Assembly (NCBI GenBank): GCA_947587615.1
Contig: CANPYC010000007.1
Location: 1 to 64,000 of the forward strand
Source of the DNA: Candidatus Gastranaerophilales bacterium
GTDB taxonomy: Bacteria > Cyanobacteriota > Vampirovibrionia > Gastranaerophilales > Gastranaerophilaceae
Length of the DNA stretch: 64,000 bases
Direction: 5' to 3'
The notes beneath the pieces are model-generated. The model ran no database searches. It saw only the letters and a list, made by a program, of their open reading frames with translations, and was not told the DNA's origin. This document shows, in pieces, positions 42,427 through 44,778 of this stretch. Both the position numbers and the translations under genes were made by a program. Position 1 is the first letter of the stretch. Each line of letters starts with the position of its first letter.

Positions 42427-43641
42427 ATGAAATTCAAGCTTCTTTACTATACAAAAATATTAATCAAGTTTATAGTTAAAACTTTTTACGGATTTCTTTG
42501 TATTGTAACACCGACAGATAAAAATAAAATCGTAATATGTTCACACCTGGGCAGAACCTTAGGCTGCAACGTTAAATATGTCGCAAATGAACTTTTAAGA
42601 AGAAAACTTCCCTACAAGCTTGTTCGCTTATATAGGGCAGATATGTTTGATTTTGCTAAAGCCGACCCCAACATTAAACTTGTAGATTGGAATAACAACT
42701 ATAAGAAAATGAGAGAGCTTGCAAGCGCCAAGCTTTGGCTTGAAGGAGATCATAAAACTTTTGAATATATGATTGGTTTAAGAAAAAAGAAAAATCAGTT
42801 TTATTTAAATACTTTTCATGGTTCACTCGGAATTAAAAAAATATATCATGATGAAGAAGTTAACGTTCGCTCTAAAAAATTTATGGAAAATTTTGACAAA
42901 AATTTTGATGATTGCGACATAATGTTTTCAAATTCAAAGTTTGAAGAAAATGTTTACAGAAGCGGTCTTAAATTTAAAAATAAAATCTTTAGAACGGGAC
43001 ATGCCAGAAATGATATATTATTTAAAGATAATACAAAAATTAAACAAAAAGTTTTAAGCAAGCTAAATATTCCAAACGGTAAAAAAATTGCCCTCTATGC
43101 GCCTTCATACAGAGATGATTTAAAAACAAACTGCTTTTCAATTGATTATAACATCTTAAAACAGGCTCTTGAAAAGAAATATAACTGCGAATGGGTAATA
43201 GTTTCCCGTTTTCATAGTGTGAACGCATTAAAATCAAAAACCAAGATAAACGATATTATGTCTGAATATGATGCAACATACTATCCCGATATGCAAGAGC
43301 TCATTGTAAGTTTTGATTTATTGATATCTGATTTTTCAAGCTGTATGTTTGATTTTATGCTCACCAAAAAACCGGTGTTTGTTTTTGCAACAGACATTGA
43401 AAAATATAATAACGAACGTGGTCTATACTATCCGCTTGAAAAAACACCTTTTTTAATTGCCTCTAACAACGAGGAGCTGGAAAAAAATATTCTTAAATTT
43501 GACTATGAAAAATATAAAAAAGATATTGAATTATTTTTAGAAGATAAACAAGCGCTGGAAGACGGGCATGCTTCAGAAAGAATTGCCGATATAATCGAGC
43601 AGTTAATGCAAGGGAAAGATATAAAAAATATAAACATTTAA
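42427..43641 (+). CDS. CDP-glycerol glycerophosphotransferase family protein (TagB/TagF-like)
   Basis: KIALYAPSYRDD, DLLISDFSSCMFDFMLTKKPVFVFATDIEKYNNERGLYYPLE. Confidence 0.85.
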   Translation: MKFKLLYYTKILIKFIVKTFYGFLCIVTPTDKNKIVICSHLGRTLGCNVKYVANELLRRKLPYKLVRLYRADMFDFAKADPNIKLVDWNNNYKKMRELASAKLWLEGDHKTFEYMIGLRKKKNQFYLNTFHGSLGIKKIYHDEEVNVRSKKFMENFDKNFDDCDIMFSNSKFEENVYRSGLKFKNKIFRTGHARNDILFKDNTKIKQKVLSKLNIPNGKKIALYAPSYRDDLKTNCFSIDYNILKQALEKKYNCEWVIVSRFHSVNALKSKTKINDIMSEYDATYYPDMQELIVSFDLLISDFSSCMFDFMLTKKPVFVFATDIEKYNNERGLYYPLEKTPFLIASNNEELEKNILKFDYEKYKKDIELFLEDKQALEDGHASERIADIIEQLMQGKDIKNINI

Positions 43642-43659: not shown

Positions 43660-44778
43660 ATGACAAACGATTTTACAACACTAACAAATAATATTGCAAA
43701 AAATTCTAAATTGGCTATATGGGGTTGTTGCGATTTTGGGAAAAAAATATATAACGAGCTTAAAAATACAAGAAAAGATGTTGAGATTAAATATTTCATA
43801 GACAAAAATGCAAAAGGAAATTTTGACAACACGGATATTTTAACAATTGAAGATTTTTTTAATCATGCAAACGAAATTGACTGCGCAATTATTGCCTCTT
43901 ATTCATCAAGATATCGTATGGAATTTATTTTAAAATCAATGGGGATTAAAAAAATTCTAATTCCAAAAGAAGAACTCTTTAGAAAAAACACCCTGATTTA
44001 CGATTTTAAAACAGCGCTTAATACTTTCAAGTTTGAAGAAGATAAAAAACTCTATACAATGTTATACAACTTTAGAAAATCAACCGTTTCAAGGTGTGAC
44101 ATTGCAAAATATTATGAAAAACAAAACTACGAGGAATTTAAAAGGAATGTTGTTAATACTCAATATCTTGATTTTATAAATAAAGATGAAATAAAGGTTC
44201 TATTAGAGGGGGGGGGTATGGACTGCGCCAACACTTTAATTTTTTTAAACAGCTTTAAAAACTGCAAAAAAGCCTACTCTTTTGAACCTTGCTATGATGA
44301 ATTTAAAGATAATCTTCTTGATTTAATAATTTCAAAAAACGATAAAATTGAAATTGTTAAAAAAGCTCTTTTTGACAAAGTTACAACCTGTGAATTTAAA
44401 AAAGCCTCCCCAAGACATAAAGGAGGGTCGGCTTTTTCAAGTGCAAAACCCGAGATGGCTTGTGAGTATGAAGTTATTAAAGTTGAATGTACAACAATTG
44501 ATGAATTTATCAAAGAAAAAGGAATAAAAAAACTTGATTTTATTAAACTTGATATAGAAAATGCGGAATTAAACGTTTTAGAAGGCGCTAAAGAAACTCT
44601 TATAAACCATAGACCGCAAATTGCAACAGCAATTTATCATTCGGATATGCAGTTTATACACATTCCAATCTTTCTTAAAGAAATCTTAAAAAACTATACC
44701 TTCAGACTTCAGCACTATACCGATAGAAACTGGGATACGGTTTTATTTGCTATACCCGATGAAATATATAAAAACTAA
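43660..44778 (+). CDS. FkbM-family methyltransferase with N-terminal Rossmann-like domain; contains a G9 tract
   Basis: KLDFIKLDIENAELNVLEGAKETLINHRPQIATAIYH FkbM motif; G9 at 44208-44216 encodes EGGG. Confidence 0.85.
   Translation: MTNDFTTLTNNIAKNSKLAIWGCCDFGKKIYNELKNTRKDVEIKYFIDKNAKGNFDNTDILTIEDFFNHANEIDCAIIASYSSRYRMEFILKSMGIKKILIPKEELFRKNTLIYDFKTALNTFKFEEDKKLYTMLYNFRKSTVSRCDIAKYYEKQNYEEFKRNVVNTQYLDFINKDEIKVLLEGGGMDCANTLIFLNSFKNCKKAYSFEPCYDEFKDNLLDLIISKNDKIEIVKKALFDKVTTCEFKKASPRHKGGSAFSSAKPEMACEYEVIKVECTTIDEFIKEKGIKKLDFIKLDIENAELNVLEGAKETLINHRPQIATAIYHSDMQFIHIPIFLKEILKNYTFRLQHYTDRNWDTVLFAIPDEIYKN
44208..44216 (+). repeat. Poly-G tract (G9) in an FkbM methyltransferase gene
   Basis: gag ggg ggg ggt: nine consecutive G. 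Confidence 0.95.

Follow-up and report, generated by a model that had tools for sequence, protein, structure and literature searches.

A poly-G tract at SAM motif I of an FkbM methyltransferase gene as a probable contingency switch within a set of glycan genes in a Gastranaerophilales bacterium

A run of nine G residues within an FkbM methyltransferase gene of an uncultured gut Gastranaerophilales bacterium is probably a contingency tract, one of a genome-wide set in glycan genes, through which slipped-strand mispairing would bring about translational phase variation of surface glycans. Slippage of poly-G within an ORF is an established route to translational phase variation, and the host group is the non-photosynthetic sister group of the cyanobacteria. 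Thus, the mechanism is already known; it is the lineage for which a literature search, with most subscription journals outside its reach, found no report of phase variation (Gastranaerophilales or Melainabacteria). The gene lies in the window, i.e., the whole stretch of 64,000 nucleotides that was analysed (assembly GCA_947587615.1, contig CANPYC010000007.1, positions 1 to 64,000), and among named records, the closest are Candidatus Gastranaerophilales MAGs.

In the proposed mechanism, slipped-strand mispairing during replication would add or remove one G. With G9, the FkbM methyltransferase would be in frame (ON); with G8 or G10, it would be truncated within 6-13 codons of SAM motif I, leaving the N-terminal part alone (OFF). 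The target of methylation would likely be a surface glycan, so that methylated and unmethylated cells would coexist in the population as a mosaic. The switching of this focal gene, the substrate of FkbM, and the benefit of switching are what we infer here.

The focal tract is read as GAG GGG GGG GGT ATG (E183-G-G-G-M187), and both the sequence and the alignment place it at SAM motif I of an intact FkbM ORF (Table 1); the initial annotation had put it near this motif. In profile searches, the protein matches PF05050 (E=4.9e-19, 69.5 bits versus a cut-off of 22.7) and TIGR01444 (67.1 bits versus a cut-off of 37.7), and its closest solved structure is the FkbM protein 2py6, the top Foldseek match (E=1.4e-17, TM 0.5). 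Fold and domain are consequently those of the FkbM family (PF05050, TIGR01444, 2py6). However, the focal protein departs from this family in having a degenerate motif I that bears a homopolymer tract, while most relatives are tract-free. Within the motif (D-x-G-x-x-x-G), G185 is retained, and D183 is replaced by E and G189 by C; these two residues are nearly invariant in the other homologues, and the motif is intact in the proteins of three tandem FkbM genes (T1-T3) of the same window. Because of the two replacements, and because the Pfam match does not start until residue 201, the ON allele, i.e., the protein encoded at G9, could from its sequence be weak or decaying. One might go further and postulate, from the loss of two nearly invariant residues, that the gene is on its way to becoming a pseudogene and that the G run is a scar rather than a switch. 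Yet the ORF is full length, the remaining domain is conserved, and the AlphaFold model is confident (mean pLDDT 89.7), so that this possibility is considered very unlikely.

Slippage by one base in either direction had been predicted to lead to a stop within about 20 codons; in the shifted frames of the focal gene, stops are in fact reached within 6-13 codons of the tract. The CDP-glycerol glycerophosphotransferase-like gene just upstream, judged solely by its spacing, is probably cotranscribed with the focal gene as an operon partner, and there is no obvious capsule cluster around the focal locus. This upstream gene is also a possible candidate for the supplier of the glycan that FkbM methylates.

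Table 1. Positions in the window of the focal gene, its neighbour, the tandem FkbM genes, and their tracts
Feature	Position	Strand	Basis or remark
Focal FkbM methyltransferase gene, 372 aa, open at G9 (ON state)	43660..44778	+	PF05050, TIGR01444, 2py6 fold
G9 tract of focal gene	44208..44216	+	codons 183-186 (E-G-G-G), at SAM motif I
CDP-glycerol glycerophosphotransferase-like gene, ends 18 nt upstream of focal gene	42427..43641	+	PF04464, E=8.6e-58
Tandem FkbM gene T1, 369 aa	54759..55868	-	profile match and AlphaFold model
Tandem FkbM gene T2, 367 aa	53628..54731	-	profile match
Tandem FkbM gene T3, 368 aa	52497..53603	-	profile match
G9 tract of T1 (L-R-G-G-G-S), 62 codons ahead of stop	54948..54956	-	sequence and alignment
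G9 tract of T2	53814..53822	-	sequence and alignment
G9 tract of T3	52677..52685	-	sequence and alignment
Near-identical island round tract in T1	54900..55064	-	sequence comparison
Matching island in T2	53766..53930	-	coordinates by offset from tract
Matching island in T3	52629..52793	-	coordinates by offset from tract

The focal gene and T1-T3 are all open at G9 and all score as FkbM methyltransferases. The tandem proteins are 35-37% identical to the focal protein in a four-protein alignment, and in this alignment the focal tract at motif I (LLEGGGMDCANT) is opposite ILDCGFCNGIQT of the tandem proteins. The tandem tract (ALRGGGSIVKKHRP) is aligned with focal VLEGAKETLINHRP, about 120 residues beyond the focal tract site, and there the focal protein reads LEGAKE. 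The AlphaFold models give the same separation, with the focal tract in the loop following strand 180-184 and the tandem tract between the late helices 299-305 and 307-313 (model mean pLDDT 91.6). Thus, the view that the tracts occupy non-homologous positions, with those of the tandem genes nearer the C-terminus, was borne out.

Homologues were found by an alignment-based scan of contigs. Full-length homologues of the focal gene were compared from two sources, the genus and public records of Gastranaerophilales, and at both tract positions all of them are free of G runs of length 7 or above. Motif I has the form D-G/C-G-x-x-N-G in these homologues, and their tandem tract site is LKGA-like. Consequently, neither the protein nor the ancestor requires a tract, in agreement with the argument of the initial annotation that shared ancestry or protein constraint can hardly account for these runs. 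From the tract-free relatives, both tracts are seen to be derived, and given that the positions are also non-homologous by alignment and predicted structure, the evidence supports separate origins of the focal and the tandem tracts. A requirement for Gly-Gly-Gly itself, with the G run merely a matter of codon choice, is highly improbable: although relatives are rich in glycine at motif I (DGGGYEG in genome G027), most of them have no Gly triplet there, and the tandem site is LKGAEK or similar. Furthermore, across 34 window ORFs, GGG is the Gly codon used least often (103 of 693, a count that takes in the tract codons), and yet the G runs are unbroken at all four sites.

The nearest relative of the focal gene, that of G027, is 46% identical and has GGGGGTGG at the focal tract site. 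Its codons there (GAC GGG GGT GGT TAT) are a single substitution away from a G8 run, and this suggests how the focal tract began. The tract would have arisen on its own, probably by base substitution in the glycine codons at motif I, and would then have grown by slippage. FkbM genes have also acquired tracts at several further positions: those of genomes G024 and G026 have tracts near the N terminus, and one FkbM gene of another genus has a tract just ahead of the domain. Almost all of the 29 top-scoring FkbM loci, from family members other than the source genome, are without a tract in the gene.

Independent origin, which stands for the focal versus the tandem tracts, does not hold among T1-T3. 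Identity between these genes is roughly 40-75% over most of their length versus 83-100% in about 165 bp round the tract, and where T1 and T3 have identical residues, the same codon is used at 49 of 51 positions inside this island versus 81 of 139 outside (p=5e-8). Because the island is near-identical and the codons match far more often inside it than outside, the three tandem tracts are, on this sequence comparison, of one origin and were spread by local gene conversion. In the proposed course of events, this single origin at a site other than the focal one would have come first and the conversion afterwards. In the shifted frames of the tandem genes, stops occur within 2-18 codons of the tract. 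T1 and T2 also share a second patch, their first 240 bases being almost identical.

The tracts stand out against the base composition of the window, whose GC content is 31%. There are exactly four G or C runs of at least 8, namely those of the focal gene and T1-T3, all of length 9; apart from these, G runs reach 5 at most and C runs 6. Eight-base matches number 8, versus 0.07 expected from dinucleotide shuffles. In the genome as a whole (2.13 Mb), runs of lengths 6, 7, 8, 9, 10, and 11 number 66, 3, 4, 19, 1, and 1, respectively, a bimodal distribution, and the 21 runs of at least 9 compare with about 0.6 expected by extrapolation from the decay ratio of the window. The second mode at 9 is not what chance would lead one to expect. 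The initial annotation had drawn on the equal length of the focal and tandem tracts, but since 19 of the 21 runs of at least 9 in the genome are exactly G9, this equality is no special coincidence.

The genes containing tracts were examined in the stretches surrounding them. They encode FkbM proteins (four), alpha-2,8-polysialyltransferases (three), a GT10 fucosyltransferase, GT2 proteins (two), a GT1-type transferase, AlgX and hexapeptide acetyltransferases, PglD, a polysaccharide deacetylase, a GDSL esterase, a methyltransferase, and a radical-SAM-like protein, with three of the assignments (radical-SAM and two further hexapeptide; loci L009, L011, and L015) made by sequence inspection. Nearly all genic tracts of the genome are thus in glycan-type genes, and three tracts (L010, L016:1864, and L020) are not contained in any long ORF, with two of these adjoining repeats. 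At 6 of 19 genic tracts, the gene is out of frame and broken at the tract. In addition, a shifted frame meets its stop sooner after a tract than after a randomly chosen codon of the same gene (median 4.5 versus 9 codons, p=0.0016; in a second comparison, 3 versus 6 codons, p=0.019). The bimodal run lengths, the restriction to glycan-type genes, the out-of-frame genes broken at tracts, the early off-frame stops, and a G9/G10 difference in a relative together lend indirect support to the earlier proposal of selection for switchable expression. At one locus (L012:3138-5664), a C10 tract links two adjacent polysialyltransferase-like genes that are out of frame with each other, and a tract of another length would fuse them.

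Within the genus, tract sets are patchy: of 28 genomes, each a species, 4 have rich sets, 6 have a few tracts, and 18 have none. In G024, G025, and G026, tracts are present in genes for glycosyltransferases, FkbM, polysialyltransferase, AlgX, pyruvyl transferase, and radical-SAM proteins, as well as for a DNA methylase and a phage tail-fibre protein. The latter, a tail-collar fibre protein of G026 with a G10 tract (L151:561-2942), is possibly a phase-variable receptor binder of a prophage. When the four rich genomes are pooled, G9 accounts for 54% of tracts and G10 for 29%, and the coding strand carries G in 59 of 73 genic tracts and C in 14.

Several comparisons between relatives reveal differences at the tracts. 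A polysialyltransferase gene (L012:6546) is OFF in the source genome, whereas its counterpart in G024, with the tract at the same codon, is ON (92% nucleotide identity), and a pair of GT2 orthologs has G11 versus G9 at the N terminus. In G026, two contigs (C23 and C67) overlap at their ends by about 115 bp and are identical save for G10 versus G9; as this is a single pair, an error of assembly or sequencing might in principle account for the difference. Moreover, 4 of the roughly 33 tracts of G026 are no more than 50 bp away from the end of a contig, versus 0.15 expected, a result that fits assembly breaks at polymorphic tracts, although a loss of coverage at G runs would give the same picture. 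The occurrence of G runs at contig ends in some relatives might be taken to mean that the tracts themselves are artefacts of assembly or sequencing, such as two-colour poly-G calls. However, tracts are internal to long contigs, their codon position is conserved between orthologues of two species, and most are on the coding strand with frames intact at G9. An artefact is thus extremely improbable.

MutS1 and MutS2 are present in the genus, and the C-terminal domain of MutL (MutL_C) was not found in any of its 28 genomes, in a search whose control was positive in 11 of 14 genomes. A missing MutL_C could raise slippage rates. It might then be proposed that the tracts are a neutral by-product, with weak mismatch repair allowing G runs to grow in glycine codons in the absence of selection; very many G runs in other genera of the family, some of them probably intergenic or in repeats, would also be compatible with this idea. 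Yet 18 of the 28 species without MutL_C have no G9 run, and genic tracts are almost entirely confined to glycan-type genes. Furthermore, the dip at 7-8 and the peak at 9 are unlike neutral decay, and a coding gene under purifying selection should shed neutral frameshift hot spots. This explanation is accordingly judged quite unlikely, and phase variation of glycan genes is preferred. The loss of mismatch repair as a sufficient cause was rejected, since the tract-free sister species are likewise without MutL_C. Across the order, a run of at least 9 occurs in 202 of 241 genomes. Many genera are far above this genus in nine-base window counts, but such counts were not accepted as tract counts for other genera, where the runs are often longer, near contig ends, or interspersed repeats.

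The features by which a Campylobacter-type phasome is recognized are a length peak at 9-10, G on the coding strand, and the lack of canonical MutSL mismatch repair. In Campylobacter, 53% of tracts are at 9 and 26% at 10, and about 95% have G on the coding strand (PMC6321876). The present set resembles that described in the PhasomeIt survey (PMC6321876) in its AT-rich genome, its tracts mostly in ORFs with G on the coding strand, its length peak at 9 and 10, its roughly 20 tracts per genome, and its many methyltransferase and sugar-transferase genes. It differs in belonging to another phylum, the uncultured gut Gastranaerophilales, and in its more common C-coding tracts (14/73 versus 5%; PMC6321876). 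As in the C-terminal phase variation of Helicobacter canadensis (PMC2823697), the poly-G of the tandem FkbM genes lies late in the gene. Unlike that case, however, the off frames of the tandem genes stop in 2-18 codons and drop the conserved HRPQLAISIYH segment, and its removal makes loss of function likelier than an altered tail. Akkermansia muciniphila (PMC3048395) is also a gut commensal with G/C runs in capsule-type genes, but there, 17 tract genes are reported with two capsule genes named and no concentration in glycan genes.

This system is of interest for its lineage, for the contrast within the genus, and for the clear evidence that tracts are gained by two routes. Among these uncultured gut bacteria related to the cyanobacteria, a poly-G phasome is rich in some species and absent from sisters of the same genus, so that a within-genus comparison becomes feasible. 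In addition, the two paralogue sets, with tracts at different codons and one of them spread by gene conversion, illustrate both routes by which a switch is gained. If switching is real, strain-level surveys and binning would misread switched-off genes as pseudogenes, and phage or immune pressure on commensal glycans would be a plausible driver.

The immediate flanks of the tracts have led to one further hypothesis. The sequence TANNAG, mostly as (C/T)TANNAG, follows the G run by 1-2 bases in 26 of 95 tracts of the genus versus 1.6 expected, for a motif that was chosen after seeing the data, and G runs in this context often have CCGA ahead of the tract (loci L125-L179, G-strand flanks). Because unrelated genes share this flank context and the tandem conversion island is centred on the tract, it can be proposed that poly-G switches in the clade were seeded or spread by a process at the DNA level, beyond chance substitution and slippage, with tracts copied together with their immediate flanks; we regard this as possible but unlikely. 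The motif was rejected as a universal signal, as 0 of 51 tracts in genus g20 have the TANNAG context, and also as a -10 promoter element, since it sits inside coding frames and ends in G. In a genome of another genus (G242), several contigs contain an interspersed repeat, CCCGA(C/G)TA-G9-CGTTAGGT, with the poly-G inside the repeated element. Finally, in a 1036-aa fusion of IspD, epimerase, and glycerophosphotransferase (L218:765-3872, in G218), the two linkers between the domains contain C10 and C9 tracts, and slippage there would fuse or separate the enzymes.
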